Of a stretch of 39,951 bases of DNA, positions 28,596 through 35,518 are shown one piece after another. Location of the stretch: NCBI GenBank assembly GCA_021462845.1, contig JAJTXU010000012.1, forward strand, positions 1 to 39,951. Reading direction: 5' to 3'. The notes beneath the pieces are model-generated. The model had not been told where the DNA came from, made no database searches, and was given only the letters and a program-made list of their open reading frames with translations. Position 1 is the first letter of the stretch. Each line of letters starts with the position of its first letter. A program made the position numbers and the translations under genes. The DNA comes from Anaerolineales bacterium (GTDB lineage Bacteria; Chloroflexota; Anaerolineae; Anaerolineales; Villigracilaceae).

Positions 28596-28625
28596 AAAGA
28601 GGCAACCCAGCGGGGTTGCCTCTTT
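28596..28625 (+). terminator. Intrinsic terminator of lexA
   Basis: AAAGAGGCAACCC and its exact complement form a 13-bp stem with an AGCG loop, ending in CTCTTTAT, 16 bases after the lexA stop. The A-rich 5' flank makes it able to work on the minus strand too. Confidence 0.85.
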
Positions 28626-28642: not shown

Positions 28643-28672
28643 AAAACGACTGGCTTTTACGCCAGTCGTTTT
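28643..28672 (-). terminator. Terminator of the ubiquitin-like operon
   Basis: AAAACGACTGGC and GCCAGTCGTTTT form a perfect 12-bp stem around TTTTAC, 11 bases beyond the stop of the vWA gene. On the minus strand it ends in GTCGTTTTGT. Confidence 0.8.
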
Positions 28673-28683
28673 TGTTACAAATA

Positions 28684-29817
28684 TTATTTGAGCTTGATTC
28701 GCCCGCTTGCAGGTTTGGCTGATTGTTTGCCAAGCCCGAATCCTGAACCGGGTTTTCTCCCGCCTGCCAGGTTCGAGATTCCGCCGATCAATCCGGGCAG
28801 GAACAGCAGAGCCAGCAAGCCAGCCAGAATGGAAAGGAACAGGGGCAGGGAACTGGTAGTGACTTCCGGTAACACACCACCGGGGTTATACGTTCCTTCC
28901 GCGACTGTGGGCGCCCCAGTCAGCGCAACTGAGAGGTTACGGTTTACGCCATCTCGTAAAGTGAACGGAGATACATAGGTGACGGCATATTCGCTTTGAT
29001 ATGCCTTGCCGGTCTGTTGATAAAGAGCGGTCAATGTGGCGGCATCGGTAACATAGGCATATTGGCCGCCGGTGCGACTCGTCAACGACTGTAGCCCGGC
29101 TTCATCGATCCCAGCCTGCCCAGTGCCCGATGGATCGCCAAAGCCGATGGCGGAAACTGTCAATCCGCTGGGTCCGACATTGCTTACGATATCTTCCTCC
29201 GTAGCAACACTCTGGTTATCCAAACCATCTGAGAGAACCAGAATTGCCTTGCGACCCGAAATACCTTCAAGGGCTTTAGTGGCTTCCATGATACCTTCGT
29301 ACATGGCGGTATCACTGCCGGTGTGAAGACCATCGATGGCGGCGGTCAGCACGGCTTTGTCTGAGGTTACTTCTTGAATTCGATACACTTGCGTATCGAA
29401 AGCGATCACGCCTGCCTGGTCAACGTCGCGCATCCCGCTGACGTAGGTCTTTGCCGCGTCTTTGGCGGCGCCGATTTTATTCCCTTTATCCATACTGCCT
29501 GAGATGTCGATGACCAGCATGGTGGTGATGGGAATAGCCTCGCCACCCAGCGCCTCCCCGCCGCCCCTCACATCTGTCAACTGCATCAGTTGTCCGTTTT
29601 CTTGAATCTGGATGGTTGCCGGATCGATGCCGACGGGTTCGCCTGCCGCGTTCGTGGCAGAGATATACACCGTGACGTTCGGGAAGTTGGAGTTGTCCAC
29701 TTGTGTGATGCGGACTTGCGGAGTCTCCGGTTCCTGCGCGTAAACCGTCAGGGCAGAACCAAATATCAGGGTGAGAATCAGGCTCAAATTGAGAGAGATG
29801 CGAATCATCCTACTCAT
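28684..29817 (-). CDS. vWA-domain protein, exported with C-terminal membrane helix
   Basis: A 377-residue protein, the last gene of the ubiquitin-like operon. A signal peptide (MIRISLNLSLILTLIFGSALTVYA, cut before Gln-Glu-Pro) is followed by a short beta-rich region. The von Willebrand A domain then carries a complete MIDAS: DISGSMD (Asp104, Ser106, Ser108), a Thr in TGSDTAMYEG and Asp in LSDGLDN. Near the C-terminus is a membrane helix (LPLFLSILAGLLALLFLPGL) and a basic tail. The vWA domain therefore faces outside and is expected to bind a metal-dependent protein ligand. The start codon lies two bases after the FHA gene stop, and its ribosome binding site (AAAGGAGA) covers that stop, so translation is coupled. 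Confidence 0.9.
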   Translation of the reverse strand: MSRMIRISLNLSLILTLIFGSALTVYAQEPETPQVRITQVDNSNFPNVTVYISATNAAGEPVGIDPATIQIQENGQLMQLTDVRGGGEALGGEAIPITTMLVIDISGSMDKGNKIGAAKDAAKTYVSGMRDVDQAGVIAFDTQVYRIQEVTSDKAVLTAAIDGLHTGSDTAMYEGIMEATKALEGISGRKAILVLSDGLDNQSVATEEDIVSNVGPSGLTVSAIGFGDPSGTGQAGIDEAGLQSLTSRTGGQYAYVTDAATLTALYQQTGKAYQSEYAVTYVSPFTLRDGVNRNLSVALTGAPTVAEGTYNPGGVLPEVTTSSLPLFLSILAGLLALLFLPGLIGGISNLAGGRKPGSGFGLGKQSAKPASGRIKLK

Positions 29818-29819
29818 GG

Positions 29820-30677
29820 TTATCTCCTTTCGTGGTACACCAGATCGGTGTTGCCCATGCGAATCTTTTGTCCGTTCGTCAATTGCGCGATCTCGATCTT
29901 ACGGTTATTGATAAACGTGCCGGCGAGACTCATGTCTTTCAGAGAGAAAGCCGCGCCGTTTCCGGTCAGCATGGCGTGTTGCGGGGCTACATCGGGGTCG
30001 GGCAAAACGATTTCCGATTTGAGGGGCGAGCTTCCGATGGCGACGGCGGGACCGCCCGCGCGCATGAATTTGTCGAGGATGAACTCGGTGCCTTTGAGTT
30101 TGCCCGATGCCACCTCGAGCCAGGCGCGTGAGAGCAGGACGACGATTAGCGAGATGAACGCGCCCACCGAGGCGCCGAGTAAAACCAGACCGACGGCTTT
30201 GCCGGTTAACGGGTCTTGAAGACGGCTGTGGACCACTTCCAGCAAGATGCCGCCCAACACGCCGCCTAATGTACCGCCCAGCATGCCTTTCCATGCTTGC
30301 GATTTGCCGACGATGCCTTCGGCAAGCCCGATCAACAGACCGAACACGCCCCAACCGAGCGCACGACCGGCAATGCCCGCGCCGACAGATTGAAAGAGGA
30401 ACTCGCTCAACGGCAAACCAAGCGCGCCCGCGCCCGAGCCGAGCAATCCGCTAAACACGCCGGATTTGATCGCTTGTACCGGGTTGCGTGTGACTGCTCC
30501 TTCGGTGAGACCGATGAACAACCCCACACATAGCCCAACCAGCGCGCCGACGACCGCTTCGCTCAGGTATAGGTTCGAGGAGAACGATAAACCGATCTGA
30601 TCGCTCACCTGCCAGCCGAACAATCCGCCCATCGCTCCAAGTAGTGCATAGTAATAGGAACGCATACGTCTATTCAT
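29820..30677 (-). CDS. Membrane protein with C-terminal FHA domain
   Basis: A 285-residue protein. The first 190 residues contain many Gly/Ala-rich hydrophobic stretches in a repeated pattern (YYYALLGAMGGLFGWQVSDQ, SEAVVGALVGLCVGLFIGLTEGA, GALGLPLSEFLFQSVGAGIAG, SLGGVLGGILLEVVHS, VGLVLLGASVGAFISLIVVLLSRA), an internally duplicated membrane region. The C-terminal 90 residues form a forkhead-associated domain: an IGSSPLKSEIVLPDPDVAPQHAML core with the conserved Ser and His, then LAGTFINNRKI and LTNGQKIRMGNT. FHA domains bind phosphothreonine peptides, so the protein could recruit a phosphorylated partner to the membrane. AAGGAGG precedes the ATG at 30677, which overlaps the end of the JAMM gene by eight bases. 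Confidence 0.88.
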   Translation of the reverse strand: MNRRMRSYYYALLGAMGGLFGWQVSDQIGLSFSSNLYLSEAVVGALVGLCVGLFIGLTEGAVTRNPVQAIKSGVFSGLLGSGAGALGLPLSEFLFQSVGAGIAGRALGWGVFGLLIGLAEGIVGKSQAWKGMLGGTLGGVLGGILLEVVHSRLQDPLTGKAVGLVLLGASVGAFISLIVVLLSRAWLEVASGKLKGTEFILDKFMRAGGPAVAIGSSPLKSEIVLPDPDVAPQHAMLTGNGAAFSLKDMSLAGTFINNRKIEIAQLTNGQKIRMGNTDLVYHERR

Positions 30678-31326
30678 AGGGGGTACCTCCTTGGTCTTCA
30701 TTTTCAGATTTGTGCAAGTTCTGCCAGTGGACGACACTCCTGCGTCCATTGGCTCCATCCATTTCGTAAAACCCAAAGTAGCGGGTGGGGTCGAGCGTGC
30801 CATCGTTCTGGCGGATAAAAAATCCAGCCACCGATGAGAATGGCTCAACCACTAATGCCACCTGCCAGGGATCGGGGAAAAAATTATTGTGCAGGAAGGT
30901 GTCGTAATGCGAGAGGAAAACTCCCATGCGCGGGTGGGTGTGGTACCACCCCACAATTTTTTCGCCGGGGTAGAGGTTTTCAATTTGATCGTGAACGTCG
31001 AGCAGTGTGTCTTTGGTAAAGGTCAGGTAGACCGCGCCCTGCCGGGTGTGTCGGGCGGGGATCATGTGATTGATTACAATAAATTGACTGCCGCCGGGCG
31101 TTTCTTCACACCACTGACCAATCAACACGCCGCCCACTTCCACTTCCGCGCTCTCGGCATGAGCCGTGATACGGAAATATGCGAGCCGATTTAGAAAGAC
31201 AGCCACGGTTGGCTGAAGGTCGCCACGATCAAAGGGAGAGTCCCAACGTCGGGCAAACTCCATTGGCGGCGGTGTGGTGTCGGGCTTTCCAACTTCGGGC
31301 GGGGCAATTCGAATAAGAGCTGGCAT
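30670..31326 (-). CDS. JAMM/MPN metalloisopeptidase (deubiquitinase-like)
   Basis: A 218-residue zinc isopeptidase of the Mov34/MPN/PAD-1 (JAB1) family. The JAMM signature is complete: Glu63 in EVEVGGVLIG, His129 and His131 in WYHTHP, Ser139 and Asp142 in FLSHYD. In bacterial ubiquitin-like operons this enzyme cleaves the Ubl from targets or processes its precursor. Here the free Ubl already ends in Gly, so deconjugation is the likelier task. The start at 31326 fits the family, although the ribosome binding site is weak; a longer frame upstream is not supported. It follows the Ubl gene after an 82-base spacer with a stem-loop, and its stop overlaps the FHA gene start by eight bases. Confidence 0.93.
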   Translation of the reverse strand: MPALIRIAPPEVGKPDTTPPPMEFARRWDSPFDRGDLQPTVAVFLNRLAYFRITAHAESAEVEVGGVLIGQWCEETPGGSQFIVINHMIPARHTRQGAVYLTFTKDTLLDVHDQIENLYPGEKIVGWYHTHPRMGVFLSHYDTFLHNNFFPDPWQVALVVEPFSSVAGFFIRQNDGTLDPTRYFGFYEMDGANGRRSVVHWQNLHKSENEDQGGTPYE

Positions 31327-31362
31327 GGGTGTTCTCTTTATGAAGGTAATCAGTGGAAGGTT

Positions 31363-31399
31363 GCGCGGACCGCTCCGCTTGTGACGAAGCGGTCCGCGC
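31363..31399 (-). promoter_or_regulatory. Stem-loop between the Ubl and JAMM genes
   Basis: GCGCGGACCGCT and AGCGGTCCGCGC form a perfect 12-bp stem with a 13-base loop. An alternative inner stem (CCGCTT/AAGCGG, 31375-31392) uses part of the same right arm. No T run follows on the minus strand, so it is more likely an mRNA-stability or attenuation element than a terminator. Confidence 0.5.
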
Positions 31400-31408
31400 G
31401 CAGGGAAA

Positions 31409-31675
31409 TTACCCCGCGGTGACATCGGCGGTCATCATCAGACGGTCGCCTTCAGGGATTCCTGCCTGGGACAGGGTCTCTTCTTCTTTCAATTCGCGAC
31501 CCAGCGCTTTGCTATCCAGGCGATAGGACATGGGGCGACCATCCGGACCAGTGACGGGGAGTTCGAGCGAGGTCGTCAACTCGGGGATCAACTCCTTCAC
31601 CGCCACCTCAGAGGGTACCTCCGCATTGCGGCTACCTCCGGAGGGAAGAACGATCGTAACGGGTATGTCTGCCAT
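31409..31675 (-). CDS. Ubiquitin-like protein (YukD-type beta-grasp)
   Basis: An 88-residue protein with the beta-grasp pattern of the YukD/ubiquitin-like superfamily: two strands (VTIVLPSGG, RNAEVP), a helix (VAVKELIPELTTSLEL), and LGRELKEEETLSQAGIPEGDRLMM at the end. It closes with Thr-Ala-Gly and then the stop, so its C-terminal residue is a glycine, as an E1 would need, but without the usual Gly-Gly. About 58 of 88 positions are identical to the N-terminal domain of the adjacent E2 fusion. AAGGAGA lies seven bases before the start. It is inferred to be the protein that is attached to targets in this system. A role in type VII secretion, as for YukD/EsaB, is less likely because no secretion ATPase or WXG100 gene is present. 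Confidence 0.9.
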   Translation of the reverse strand: MADIPVTIVLPSGGSRNAEVPSEVAVKELIPELTTSLELPVTGPDGRPMSYRLDSKALGRELKEEETLSQAGIPEGDRLMMTADVTAG

Positions 31676-31759
31676 TGTTTATCTCCTTTCTTACTAAGTA
31701 TGGTTTAGGCTGAACCACAGCCACGTCAAAGTTCCGCTATTGCGAAGCAGTGCGCACTG

Positions 31760-32659
31760 TCAACGCAATTTAATTTTGGGTTTGTCGATCGCTTTCGGCG
31801 CGGCAGGCTGAAGTTTCACCTGCACGGCTGGCTTGCTCTTCGCCGGTTCAGATAGATTCAATTTCACGCGCTCTGGTCTCAGCAATTCACGGTGATCGAC
31901 CGGGAAATCATTGGGATGTTTCTTGCGATATTCACGGCTCCAGCGCGCCGCTTCGGCATCCCATGGGAAGGGAGGTTTGGTCGGGTCGTCGTGGAAATTT
32001 TTCCACTGGAGCATTTCGCCAAGCATCAGCACAAGCCTGTCCAGTGAGCGGCTTGCCGCCCACCATGCCGCATCGATACACACGCTACCGTTGACGTGAT
32101 TGATATTCGGATGCCAGATCGGGGTTAACCACTTCATGCCGGGCCAACGTTGCGGATACTGATTGTGCAAATAAATTTCCACTTGATGATGTTCGGAAAA
32201 TTTTGGGTTGCCCTGCCGATCCACATTCGAGATACTCTTGCACTTGAAGGTGACGATGTATCGTTCGGGAGGCAGGTTTGGGTTCGGAGAGGAAGCGACG
32301 AAGGAAATCAAATCGCTGCGGGAGGATAGCTCCATCATCAATTCATAATCGCCGCGCAACCGCCGCATACGAGGCGTTTCTGCCACAGACATCGCGCCAG
32401 CCGTAATATCCGCAGTCAACATCAAGCGATCATTCTCCGGGATACCGGCTTCCGTGAGCGTTTCGTCTTCTTTGAGTTCGCGCCCAAGCGCCTTGCTGTC
32501 CGCGCGATACGTCATCGGGCGTCCGTCGGGACCAACGGTTGGGAGGCTCAACACCGAAATTAACTCGGTCATTAAGTCTCGCATTTTCACATCGGCGGGC
32601 ACTTCAGCAGTGCGCACGCCTCCGCTCGGCATAACAAGGGTTACATTCATTTCAGACAT
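31760..32659 (-). CDS. Ubiquitin-like domain fused to E2 (UBC) conjugating enzyme
   Basis: A 299-residue two-domain protein. Residues 1-88 are a YukD-type ubiquitin-like domain, a close paralogue of the free Ubl gene (31409). Residues about 98-245 form a UBC fold with the E2 signature: HPN at 183-185 and the catalytic cysteine at 194 (NGSVCID). Proline-rich positions around 170-180 (QYPQRWPGMKWLTPIW) and the C-terminal FPWDAEAARWSREY helix also match E2 enzymes. The last 45 residues are basic and proline-rich with VKLN/IKLR ends. It should accept the Ubl from the E1 as a thioester and hand it on. The gene lies 16 bases after the RING gene, with GGAAGG eight bases before its start, and 84 bases before the free Ubl gene. 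A UBC domain with an N-terminal Ubl is unusual in bacteria. Confidence 0.92.
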   Translation of the reverse strand: MSEMNVTLVMPSGGVRTAEVPADVKMRDLMTELISVLSLPTVGPDGRPMTYRADSKALGRELKEDETLTEAGIPENDRLMLTADITAGAMSVAETPRMRRLRGDYELMMELSSRSDLISFVASSPNPNLPPERYIVTFKCKSISNVDRQGNPKFSEHHQVEIYLHNQYPQRWPGMKWLTPIWHPNINHVNGSVCIDAAWWAASRSLDRLVLMLGEMLQWKNFHDDPTKPPFPWDAEAARWSREYRKKHPNDFPVDHRELLRPERVKLNLSEPAKSKPAVQVKLQPAAPKAIDKPKIKLR

Positions 32660-32675
32660 AATTTAACCTTCCAAG

Positions 32676-33617
32676 TCAAGAATTTAGATGCGGCACCTGG
32701 CAAAAGCCGGTGATCGCCCAACAATCTGCGTGATGAAGCGTGTGACACACGTCGCATTCCTGCACGCCGCGCGCATCGTTTCGATTGACAGGATCAAGAC
32801 AATACGGACAGCGATGCTCTTCAACCACAGCCAACTGGATATTCGGTCGACGCCGCGAACGGCTCTTTCGTGGAGCGCTTGCCTTCGCCGCCTTCCGCAC
32901 CTCGGTCCTGCTTCTGTTCTTTGTGCGGATTCGGGGCCTCGGCGCCGGGCTCGGCGCGGGACTGCGAAACCAGGTGACAGGTTGGCGGGGTTCGTGCGTT
33001 TCCACCGGCGAGACGCTCACACCGATATTACGCGGCTCCACTTCGATCTGCGCGTGCCCCAGCGGCTCGACCTCGATCACCTGCCGCGACGATTGCCTCC
33101 AAGCCTGTAAAGACAGCAGGGTCAACAACAAACTCACGGCAAGGTGCGCCACATCGCTCGCTTCCATTTTGCTGAAGTCAAACAAAGTCAGCGGATCGAG
33201 ATTCAAATCACGTAACTGAGTTGATAACGTGCTGTCAAAGCTAAGATTGCGAATCTGCGCGGAAGCATCGCGCTCAAACCCAAGCGGACCTATGCCTAAC
33301 ACCGATTTTGTCAACGAACCGATCAAGATCATTCCGACAAGCGCCGCAAGGATGGCAGTGATGTACTGCGCCGCCAAATTCCAATTGCGATACACGAACC
33401 GCGCCCCATATCCCGCAATCAATCCAATACACGCATCCGCAAAAAACGTGGGGAGCAGCAGCGGCAGGTCACGATCGAGGCGGAACCACAACACAATACC
33501 CAGCGAAGCGTTGACAACCAGCAAGAGTAAGATCGTCAGCTTACGCATGAACGAATCGGATTCTCTCGCATACATAGAAGCATGAATGGAACTCATCGTC
33601 GCGGCATGGGTCGCCAT
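32676..33617 (-). CDS. Membrane-anchored RING-like finger protein (putative E3)
   Basis: A 313-residue protein. The first 170 residues contain about four hydrophobic segments (KLTILLLLVVNASLGIVLWF, LLLPTFFADACIGLIAGYGA, AAQYITAILAALVGMILIGS, VAHLAVSLLLTLLSLQAW), so it is membrane-embedded. A Pro/Arg/Lys-rich linker (about 180-260) leads to a C-terminal zinc domain with Cys270, Cys273, Cys288, Cys291, His295 or His296, Cys299 and Cys306. The spacing (CPYC, ECDVC, LHHADCW, C) resembles the prokaryotic RING finger family 1. In eukaryotes such domains bring an E2 and a substrate together. Its position between E1 and E2 genes supports an E3-type role, but no catalytic proof is possible from sequence. 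It starts three bases after the E1 stop, with a poor ribosome binding site, so coupled translation is likely. Confidence 0.85.
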   Translation of the reverse strand: MATHAATMSSIHASMYARESDSFMRKLTILLLLVVNASLGIVLWFRLDRDLPLLLPTFFADACIGLIAGYGARFVYRNWNLAAQYITAILAALVGMILIGSLTKSVLGIGPLGFERDASAQIRNLSFDSTLSTQLRDLNLDPLTLFDFSKMEASDVAHLAVSLLLTLLSLQAWRQSSRQVIEVEPLGHAQIEVEPRNIGVSVSPVETHEPRQPVTWFRSPAPSPAPRPRIRTKNRSRTEVRKAAKASAPRKSRSRRRPNIQLAVVEEHRCPYCLDPVNRNDARGVQECDVCHTLHHADCWAITGFCQVPHLNS

Positions 33618-33620
33618 CGG

Positions 33621-35450
33621 CTATTCTTTCGCGGGTTTCGGCGCGTCATCCGCGTTGGCGAAAACGATCTTCTTCGAGGGCTGTCCTTCGCCTTTCGCCT
33701 GAACCGTGTTGGGTTGGGCATCTGCAAGTTTGACGAGGCTCTTCTTGCGGAGGTGTACCGGCTCAGAGGATACAGGTCGAACAGAAACAACTTCCTTCAC
33801 CGCGTGATCCTTGATCCGAATTCGATCACGAACCGCGCCGCTGGCCGGATCCATGATTCGAATCTCGTCCTTCAACCGCACGCGACTGCCAACTTTCAAA
33901 GGATCTGCTCCAGCCAGTTTGATCGTCTGCTCGAAGTGACGGAAGTGAAGCGCATCAGGCAGATCACCGGTCAACTCGTAGAAGCGATATTCCATCCCGT
34001 TTTGCGCGCGGATGATATGCAAAGCCGGGATGCCCACACTTGCCAAAGTCCGATGCAGGAAGTTCTCCTCGCCGGTGATCGTGTGCGTGAAACTCGCCTC
34101 GCGCAGGGTACCGCAGGTCGGGCAGTGTCCAGCCTCAAATGTGATATCGCTTAGCGGTTTCAGCACATCTTCCTTCGTCTGGCATTTTGGGCATTCCAAC
34201 GACGTGACCAGTTCCTGGTCGAGTTCGATAAAGGCGTGCTGTCCCAGATCGGCGCGCGCAATACGAAGCAGGTCATGAAGCGTGGCGCGTTCGGCGCGCG
34301 CCGGCAGTTCGGTGATGTCGCCATACGTCCAGTGGCTTTCGCAATCTTCGCGCGGCACGTAGGCAGTCGTGTGCATGTGGTTGGTGAGACCATTGAAGTG
34401 TGTGACCTTGCCCGGCTCCACCGTCATGCTGTGAATCAACTTCAATCCTTCCTGCGATTGCATGCCGCCGATGATCGAAGCAATCGTCGGCGTCGTCGGA
34501 ACTTTGCCAAGCAGAACATTTTGCCGCGCCAACAATTGACATGAATAGCGCAGGGAAAGGTCGCGCAAAGCCGCCTCGGTGAGCGTGCATTCATAGCACG
34601 CGCCTTCGCCGGGGACGAACACGCGCATCAACCCGAGCAGTTCTTGAATCGCGCCATCCACCCAGGATTTGTTCATCCAATAGCAGAAGCGGTTGACCGC
34701 CAGCCGCGCCTCGCGGTTATCGAGACAGCCAATGATCACATCCATGCGGCGGATGATTCCCAGCCCCAGACCGGTCGTCACATCGGCGTTCAAATATTGC
34801 ACGCGCACATCCGGGTTCACCGACTTCGCGCGCGCCGCCGCCACCTCGGCTTTACTGCGATTGTTATCCGTTTCGCGGAACAACACCGAACGGCTAAGGT
34901 TGGCGGCTTCGATCTTGTCGAAATCGATAATGAAGATGTTGCCCACGCCCATCAGCGACAGGTTCTTGATCACTTCGTTACCGAGCGCGCCAGCGCCGAT
35001 CACCAACACTTTCGCATTCTTCACTTTCTCGCGTTCCCACCACGAGATGAACTCAAACGTGCCAAGCCGATCTTTTTGAAGGTTGGGAATGCGGATCGGT
35101 TTCTCCGGCGAGACCGGGATTCGGCGCGGACCCGTCAACGGCTCGCTTGCCGCAGAGTTCGACGCTTTTAGATCTGCGCCTCCAGCCAGTTCTTTTGCCT
35201 GCATAATATTCGACTCCTCGATCGTTCGCGCAAACCATCCCACATGTGGGCGCGACTCAACCAAACGGCTTTCTTCCATCATCTTCAACGCTTCGCGCAA
35301 CGTAGCGCGGCTGATCCCCAACTGACTCATCAACTCACGCTCCGGAGGGAGTTGCGCGCCCTGCGGCAACGCGCCATCCAGCAGGGATGCGGCAAGCCTG
35401 CCCGCCGCAGTTCTTACAAGTGACTTCTGTGAAATTTTTTGTATTTTCAT
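33621..35450 (-). CDS. E1-like ThiF adenylating enzyme with N-terminal GntR-type winged helix
   Basis: A 609-residue fusion and the first gene of the operon. Residues about 9-75 are a GntR-type winged HTH (LPPERELMSQLGISRATLRE, then ALKMMEESRLVESRPHVGWF); its recognition helix resembles the FadR subgroup. Residues about 120-345 are a ThiF/E1 domain with GAGALG at 152-157, the NLSRS arginine loop (184-188), Lys200, and Asp244 (CLDN). The candidate catalytic Cys304 (RYSCQLL) lies in the crossover loop after CYEC (285-288). A C-terminal region holds a zinc ribbon, CPKC (420-423) and CPTC (443-446), and ends in a basic beta-rich tail. It is expected to adenylate the Ubl C-terminal Gly and pass it to the E2. 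The start at 35450 includes the whole HTH; the ribosome binding site is weak. The fused HTH likely autoregulates the operon through the palindrome at 35470. Confidence 0.9.
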   Translation of the reverse strand: MKIQKISQKSLVRTAAGRLAASLLDGALPQGAQLPPERELMSQLGISRATLREALKMMEESRLVESRPHVGWFARTIEESNIMQAKELAGGADLKASNSAASEPLTGPRRIPVSPEKPIRIPNLQKDRLGTFEFISWWEREKVKNAKVLVIGAGALGNEVIKNLSLMGVGNIFIIDFDKIEAANLSRSVLFRETDNNRSKAEVAAARAKSVNPDVRVQYLNADVTTGLGLGIIRRMDVIIGCLDNREARLAVNRFCYWMNKSWVDGAIQELLGLMRVFVPGEGACYECTLTEAALRDLSLRYSCQLLARQNVLLGKVPTTPTIASIIGGMQSQEGLKLIHSMTVEPGKVTHFNGLTNHMHTTAYVPREDCESHWTYGDITELPARAERATLHDLLRIARADLGQHAFIELDQELVTSLECPKCQTKEDVLKPLSDITFEAGHCPTCGTLREASFTHTITGEENFLHRTLASVGIPALHIIRAQNGMEYRFYELTGDLPDALHFRHFEQTIKLAGADPLKVGSRVRLKDEIRIMDPASGAVRDRIRIKDHAVKEVVSVRPVSSEPVHLRKKSLVKLADAQPNTVQAKGEGQPSKKIVFANADDAPKPAKE

Positions 35451-35469
35451 ATTTTTTCTCGTGGTCTTG

Positions 35470-35480
35470 TGGTCAGACCA
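35470..35480. promoter_or_regulatory. FadR-type operator upstream of the E1 gene
   Basis: TGGTCAGACCA is a perfect palindrome of the TGGTC-N-GACCA type bound by FadR-like GntR regulators. It begins nine bases downstream of the -10 box, at the expected transcription start, where a bound protein would block initiation. Confidence 0.7.
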
Positions 35481-35489
35481 ATTGCAGTC

Positions 35490-35518
35490 ATTATAGGAAC
35501 CGCCAGAGTGAAAATCAA
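35490..35518 (-). promoter_or_regulatory. Promoter of the ubiquitin-like operon
   Basis: On the minus strand: TTGATT (complement of 35513-35518), a 17-base spacer and a perfect TATAAT (complement of 35490-35495), directed at the E1 gene about 40 bases on. Confidence 0.8.

Follow-up and report, generated by a model that had tools for sequence, protein, structure and literature searches.

A seven-gene, probable ubiquitin-like conjugation operon of Chloroflexota with a winged-helix E1 and a predicted operator

Can a bacterium carry a ubiquitin-like conjugation pathway on its chromosome whose activating enzyme also controls the genes for the pathway? This question is raised by a 39,951 nt stretch of DNA from an Anaerolineales bacterium (contig JAJTXU010000012.1; hereafter the window, with positions counted from its first letter), in which seven head-to-tail open reading frames (ORFs) fill positions 28684-35450 of the minus strand and are transcribed from 35450 toward 28684. 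In that order they encode a GntR-E1, a membrane protein with a PHD/RING-like domain, a fusion of a ubiquitin-like protein (Ubl) to an E2, a free Ubl, a JAMM peptidase, a membrane FHA protein, and a vWA protein. We consider it reasonably probable that these genes form a chromosomal, membrane-tethered, self-regulated Ubl-conjugation module. ORF calling placed all seven genes where, and on the strand on which, a first-pass annotation of the window had put them, and a Pfam profile search of the window proteins gave a domain match for each, that of the zinc domain lying below the Pfam cut-off. The features are as follows.

35490..35518, minus strand: promoter-like TTGATT-17-TATAAT (motif match)
35462..35480, minus strand: predicted operator TGGTCTGACCACAAGACCA, between a -10-like hexamer and the E1 start (sequence pattern)
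33621..35450, minus strand: E1 with an N-terminal GntR/FadR-type winged helix, 609 aa (Pfam GntR 4.1e-16, ThiF 5.6e-54)
32676..33617, minus strand: membrane protein with a C-terminal PHD/RING-like zinc domain, 313 aa (PF14446 0.0016, below cut-off)
31760..32659, minus strand: Ubl-E2 fusion, 299 aa (YukD 1.4e-6, UQ_con 1e-10)
31409..31675, minus strand: free YukD-like Ubl, 88 aa, C-terminus TAG (YukD, PF08817, 3.4e-13)
30670..31326, minus strand: JAMM/JAB peptidase, 218 aa from M34 of its ORF (JAB 1.2e-11)
29820..30677, minus strand: glycine-rich multi-pass membrane protein with a C-terminal FHA domain, 285 aa (FHA 1.3e-11)
28684..29817, minus strand: vWA protein with the tail RIKLK (VWA_2 8.8e-16)
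28643-28672 and 28596-28625, minus strand: two perfect terminator-like hairpins of 13 and 12 bp, between the vWA gene and the convergent lexA

To compare the operon across relatives, we used a set of 61 genomes (the window's own and 60 relatives) and a GTDB scan from which the best 80 of 119 loci were kept, labeled L below. The E1 maps as a winged helix-turn-helix (residues ∼11-89), a ThiF adenylation domain (∼140-375), a beta-rich domain with four further Cys residues (379-500), and a disordered tail (511-609). Its structural model, with a mean predicted local distance difference test score (pLDDT) of 72, matches ThiF, UBA5, and UBA3, with MoeB also among the closest folds. Residues R14, D62, R73, K86, and D130 of Escherichia coli MoeB, which are presumably its adenylation residues, align with R128, D176, R187, K200, and D244 of the E1, and these five residues together with C304 are invariant in 38/38 sequences. 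There is a single ThiF stretch rather than paired adenylation domains, and it stands in place of the FCD ligand domain, for which no match was found in the E1 at E 0.1.

The winged helix matches the DNA-binding domain of PdhR (5kvr, 4.8e-15). Among the 67 loci having sufficient upstream DNA, the FadR-type core TGGT-N3-ACCA, which we take to be the FadR/PdhR operator consensus, lies near the E1 start in 54, and in 57 when ACTA is also accepted, against 0.017 expected per region. When the ten remaining loci were inspected by eye, close variants were seen in seven and outer half-sites only in L122. An extra half-site with the consensus ATACCA follows the operator in relatives. In the window, the predicted operator comes shortly after the -10-like hexamer and is the sole match to its pattern at up to three mismatches (0.16 expected). 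At up to one mismatch, the extended pattern matched in 19 of the 61 genomes; 16 of the 17 genomes that carry the operon matched at one place, the operon promoter, and in the seventeenth, which has no match, the contig ends inside E1. Sister E1s that lack the winged helix (L158 and L159) have no operator within 300 bases, and a locus of another class, L160, has both the winged helix and the operator. Given the position of the operator at the promoter and E1 start, we infer that the E1 probably represses its own operon.

The likely true start of the E1 is M27 of its ORF (35450), in agreement with the first-pass annotation; those of the JAMM and FHA proteins are likely M34 (31326) and M58 (30677), the latter conserved in 76/76. 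The annotation had also set the genes between a promoter and a terminator. Two perfect, terminator-like hairpins lie 3′ of the vWA gene. The promoter motif is present as described, but such matches are no commoner than in shuffled sequence (six in the region versus 5.0 expected); many relatives, by eye, show similar TTGAC...TATAAT stretches before the operator. Upstream of the operon, rplL is followed by a hairpin of its own, which makes the operon appear to be transcribed separately.

A second feature ties together three of the encoded proteins, which are otherwise unrelated. The motif [RK][IV][KRH][LI][KRH] occurs within the last 12 residues of 30/79 E1, 60/81 E2, and 37/68 vWA proteins, and in controls it was found in 1/306 members of the other four families and 1/457 mechanically chosen flanking ORFs. 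Three basic and two aliphatic residues can be arranged in ten ways; this arrangement was counted 31, 61, and 39 times in the E1, E2, and vWA proteins, respectively, and none of the other nine more than six times, while shuffling the last 14 residues yields the motif at most four times. Scored over the last 60 residues in 67 loci, the tail is present in all three proteins in 12 loci, in two in 38, in one in 14, and in none in three. A broader motif was not used; it also matches 43/76 FHA proteins. Since the vWA tail comes after a C-terminal hydrophobic segment, it is probably cytosolic. A tail common to E1, E2, and vWA proteins suggests a shared docking partner, and one common partner is the simplest reading of these C-termini. 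The FHA protein as sole receptor became a weaker candidate, as the sister E2s, whose operons lack FHA, have GIKFG and GIKIG as their C-termini.

We then asked whether the remaining enzymes of a conjugation cascade are intact. The Ubl-E2 fusion carries a YukD-like Ubl at residues 1-88, followed by the E2 with H183, P184, N185, and C194, and ends in the tag KIKLR. Its HPN and Cys align with the active site of UBE2K, the HPN...C site of eukaryotic E2s, and are invariant in 81 aligned rows. In the JAMM peptidase, E96, H162, H164, S172, and D175 (ORF numbering) are invariant in 77 rows. The catalytic residues that the first-pass annotation had named (E1 Cys304; E2 HPN and Cys194; JAMM Glu63, His129, His131, and Asp142) are correct and invariant in aligned relatives. 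In 75/78 cases TAG is the exact C-terminus of the free Ubl; the others are one sequence cut by a contig end and two with 1-2 extra residues. The fused Ubl has T-A-G at the same place in every aligned row, followed by a variable linker, an arrangement that would suit release of the fused Ubl by JAMM. The free and the fused Ubls form two groups of paralogues, each conserved on its own, with 81% and 75% within and 70-72% between the groups (62 loci). In L160, all seven genes are present and the E2 is not fused to a Ubl, which speaks against any need for the fusion. An extra JAB gene precedes the JAMM gene in L109 (4667-5752), L111, L113, L117, L124, and L126; that of L109 has an N-terminal FHA match (2.9e-5), placing FHA and JAB in one protein, while those of L111 and L126 have no FHA match at 0.001 (L126 has PF16697 at 6.8e-4). 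L122 has the long JAB only.

Two readings that would do without conjugation bear on these same proteins, and both appear very improbable. According to the first, a ThiF/MoeB-like E1 would make a Ubl thiocarboxylate for sulfur transfer, with JAMM trimming the Ubl; ThiF and MoeB are indeed among the closest folds of the E1, but the E2 retains its invariant HPN and Cys, and none of the 25 Pfam families seen most often in 123 flanking ORFs (16 loci) belongs to sulfur metabolism. According to the second, the Ubls would serve a type VII-like secretion apparatus unconjugated, in the role of YukD/EccD. Both Ubls match PF08817 YukD, but an intact E1, E2, and JAMM and an exact Gly terminus would then be useless, and WXG100 is over the cut-off in 5/17 operon genomes versus 9/44 others, which shows no link (other parts of the apparatus were not searched); we rejected the secretion reading on this distribution.

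Three of the seven proteins have hydrophobic segments. In the zinc domain, C270, C273, C288, C291, H296, C299, C306, and H310 (C4-H-C2-H) are invariant in 80 rows; the domain is modeled at pLDDT 89 and is found in exactly the same 17/61 genomes as the E2. The FHA protein has four hydrophobic segments, and its membrane part (29820-30677) contains 16 invariant and seven nearly invariant glycines in a glycine zipper-like pattern. The vWA protein has two such segments, an N-terminal one that is a probable signal peptide and a C-terminal one, on either side of a vWA domain with an intact metal ion-dependent adhesion site (D104, S108, T170, and D197 invariant; S106 in 71/72). At L160 (1820-3049), the RING-like protein has a duplicated membrane region and adjoins the unfused E2.

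How widely and how steadily is the operon kept? All 80 GTDB locus titles belong to Chloroflexota lineages, and the isolates carrying the operon include Leptolinea tardivitalis, Leptolinea sp. HRD-7, and Pelolinea submarina; L048, an Anaerolineales metagenome-assembled genome, matches the window at 99% in the E2. Counting gene fragments at contig ends, the full seven-gene order is found in 68/80 loci, six of them with the extra JAB gene; 11 of the others miss genes only at contig ends, and L101 differs through a start call for its FHA ORF that lies farther upstream. Within the genome set, the Ubl-E2 occurs in 17/61 genomes, each with a second Ubl, and the order is whole in 12 (the window included) and broken by contig ends in five, so that the genes are adjacent in relatives as far as the contigs reach. 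Neither of the outcomes that the first-pass annotation had named as refuting it, catalytic cysteines out of line with E1/E2 active sites or genes not adjacent in related genomes, was borne out. A profile of the E2 run against 400 genomes from the phylum gave matches at 0.001 in 30; ten of these are strong (best E <1e-100), nine of them in the window's own order. Beyond these, the large genomes of family f41 of the phylum (e.g. G108, G162, and G413) have a YukD-like domain in frames of ∼300-600 aa, perhaps EccD-type membrane proteins, and L161 of the same family carries, at 142-2687, another, distant E2 together with an E1 and an ORF of 109 aa.

The operon also has a fixed place. In 11/12 operon genomes of the home family, it lies at secE-nusG-rplK-rplA-rplJ-rplL-[operon]-lexA as far as contigs reach; the exception, G027 (L036), has none of the genes of this site nearby. 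Among relatives that lack the operon, rplJ could be placed in 22, of which we examined 14: in 11, lexA comes directly after rplL and operon genes are absent at E 1e-5, and in three lexA was not found, one of these ending early. The first-pass annotation had described neither this empty site nor the operator nor the shared tail. Using the window and the 20 of 80 loci that have all four flanking proteins (n = 21), distances between operons track those between ribosomal proteins with a Mantel r of 0.77, the largest of 2000 permutations giving 0.35. The operon and ribosomal trees have 10/18 splits in common, and their well-supported splits are compatible in 8/10 and 11/15 cases; as some well-supported splits conflict, some exchange is possible. 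Away from the rplL-lexA site the neighbors vary and none is constant. Recurrent flanking families are mainly those of this site, with no family in more than 18/80 loci; an ABC-transporter-like family recurs on either side in 11/80.

These distributions bear on anti-phage defense, in which infection would lead to attachment of the Ubl to proteins of the phage or of the host, as in Bil, the Cap2/Cap3 pair of CBASS, or Bub. The operon shares the enzyme classes of those systems, two of its proteins have PADLOC matches (the E1 to E1-E2 models, 1.7e-16, and the JAMM, weakly, to JAB models, 1.3e-5), and presence is patchy (17/61 genomes) and all-or-none at one site. Among 123 flanking ORFs of 16 other loci, 138 PADLOC families were matched, and the 25 listed include mad3 (10), mad8 (5), AriA (4), BrxL (3), and type II and type III methyltransferases (two each), so a few loci may lie in a defense neighborhood. 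Set against this are the rplL-lexA site and the Mantel correlation, and the Ubl-E2 has no relatives in plasmids, phages, or viral contigs, which also led us to reject a mobile element. Moreover, several of the PADLOC matches are to common ABC/AAA-type domains, no defense neighbor recurs across loci among the matches listed, and the other five proteins of the operon (Ubl-E2, free Ubl, RING-like, FHA, and vWA) are without a PADLOC match. We therefore regard a defense role as unlikely.

A role in membrane or envelope stress and proteostasis, with the Ubl marking proteins of the membrane that are to be repaired or handed to an ATP-dependent protease (Lon, for instance), is compatible with the mechanism that we favor and strikes us as a possibility, albeit a somewhat doubtful one. 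The hydrophobic segments in three of the seven proteins would fit it, as would a dynamin-like GTPase next to the sister operon and a Redoxin-HSP20-Lon block within ∼5.5 kb of the operon at 5/80 loci (L091, L095, L097, L099, and L106). However, the five loci form one clade and the Lon linkage is confined to that lineage, and a proteasome search that succeeded in 10/14 control genomes gave 0/61 matches over the cut-off, with one sub-threshold match in G032. Coupling to a proteasome in the manner of Pup or SAMP was rejected on this result.

In the self-regulated membrane module that we favor, the E1 would adenylate the free Ubl at its C-terminal Gly, which the ...TAG end exposes from the outset, take the Ubl onto Cys304, and pass it, presumably as a thioester, to Cys194 of the Ubl-E2 on its way to target proteins. 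The membrane PHD/RING-like protein could serve as E3 or scaffold, and JAMM would take the Ubl tag off again. Docking of the E1, E2, and vWA tails on one shared cytosolic partner would gather the cascade at the membrane, where the vWA protein may link it to something outside the cell. The winged helix of the E1 would bind TGGTCTGACCA over the transcription start and repress the operon, and since the ligand domain of FadR is replaced by the E1, the Ubl-loading state of the E1 is a likely signal. A bolder version, which we advance tentatively and hold slightly on the doubtful side, makes the E1 a dedicated transcription factor of the pathway, whose winged helix would recognize possibly the sole operator of the genome and whose adenylation domain would sense Ubl load, so that the pathway gauges its own charge, and has the tails act as a code that assembles a membrane machine with an outward vWA receptor; JAMM may then free the fused Ubl at TAG, giving two modifiers.

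Several observations weigh against this module or parts of it. Regarding control, L115 and L124 show no operator by eye, 3/44 genomes that lack the operon contain a match to the operator pattern at one mismatch (one place each), and a reversed control pattern matches once in the 61 genomes; at up to one mismatch the E1 has one predicted genomic target, its own promoter, with weaker sites not searched. All three proteins are tailed in only 12/67 loci, and the strict tail is absent from the last 60 residues of 39/79 E1s and 27/68 vWA proteins; in the window, the E2 and vWA proteins end in the tail and the E1 copies lie 67-87 residues before the end. For the E1 active site, the first-pass assignment holds for the adenylation residues and for an invariant loop Cys304, whose catalytic role is likely, but the alignment puts Cys304 seven positions off MoeB C187, and model pLDDT is <50 at 296-318, around this residue, as it is at 511-609. 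The claim of a membrane RING-like protein fares similarly. Its zinc domain has invariant Cys/His positions and is confidently modeled, but scores 18.8 bits with PF14446 against a cut-off of 29.1 (the L158 counterpart passes at 33.7), and a Foldseek search with it gave nothing at E ≤0.001, PHD fingers ranking first (0.058) and RINGs lower. By sequence profile, its top Protein Data Bank match is ribosomal eL43 (7.4e-4), then HOIL-1 (9.4e-4), with TRIM5 also among the matches (0.011). We therefore label the domain PHD/RING-like, and with weak PHD-finger matches as its best structural neighbors, E3 activity is a guess. FHA domains usually have an Arg in a GR motif for phosphothreonine binding; here Ser273 is invariant (76 rows) at what would be that position. 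Finally, Bacillus subtilis YukD is reported, in the excerpt of PMC1779556, as not conjugated.

If the favored module is correct, an E1 doubling as a transcription factor would represent a new wiring of a conjugation pathway, and since the operator sequence is known, its regulation is testable at once. From the shared tail, a specific contact between proteins can be predicted, and named isolates offer a chromosomal Ubl cascade that has a candidate E3 besides E1, E2, and JAMM. Likewise, that most of the home family keeps the operon at one chromosomal site points to bacterial Ubl conjugation being more than a phage-defense weapon.

How does the operon compare with known systems? In 2011, Burroughs, Iyer, and Aravind (Mol Biosyst) reportedly predicted bacterial operons of RING, YukD-Ubl, E1, E2, and JAB. 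Those operons reportedly have the same five core parts as the window (YukD-like Ubl, E1, E2, JAB, and RING finger) and are not known to have an operator or a shared tail. The sister operons L158 and L159, of the same class as the window, also have an E1, a YukD-like Ubl, an E2, a JAB, and a RING-like protein, the last of which clears the PF14446 cut-off in L158, but their E1 lacks the winged helix and tail, their E2 is unfused, there are two JABs, and no FHA or vWA protein was found in them by the models used. By Pfam, L158 (5994-15821) encodes a dynamin-like GTPase, an unknown 416-aa gene, a CAP-domain gene, E1, YukD-Ubl, E2, two JABs, and Prok-RING_1, the dynamin-like and CAP genes lying upstream; L159 (2896-12707) looks alike by sequence and length. 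That bacterial Ubl operons were already known, as the first-pass annotation had it, agrees with the excerpt of PMC5654768, which notes complete Ubl-conjugation operons of this general class in some bacteria; the broad class of RING-type Ubl operons is a known one. The archaeal operon of Candidatus Caldiarchaeum subterraneum, as described in that excerpt, likewise has adjacent Ub, E1, E2, small RING E3, and Rpn11/JAMM genes, without a regulator-E1, FHA, or vWA protein; its pro-ubiquitin is trimmed to di-Gly, whereas the Gly of the window Ubl is already exposed (PMC5654768). BilABCD likewise combines Ubl, E1, E2, and JAMM in one operon, but according to the excerpt of PMC11354881, BilA has two Ub-like domains in contrast to the YukD-type Ubl of the window, BilB has a CEHH motif where the window E2 has HPN-C and no CEHH, and BilD has an inactive and an active adenylation domain where the window E1 has one.

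Among the open-licence literature matches listed, no title deals with this operon, and none has the E1-regulator with its operator, the shared tail, or the strict seven-gene FHA/vWA unit. FadR/PdhR-type GntR regulators share the winged helix and the TGGT-N3-ACCA operator with the window E1, but carry a C-terminal ligand domain where the window protein has a ubiquitin-type E1. Local control of a Ubl-type operon is likewise seen in the Bub and CBASS operons, where, in the excerpt of PMC13373217, CapW, CapH with CapP, and CapK with CapS are separate proteins responding to DNA damage; in the window the regulator is fused to the E1. Relative to the known class of Ubl operons, this predicted E1-regulator with its operator and the tail shared by E1, E2, and vWA proteins are what is new here.

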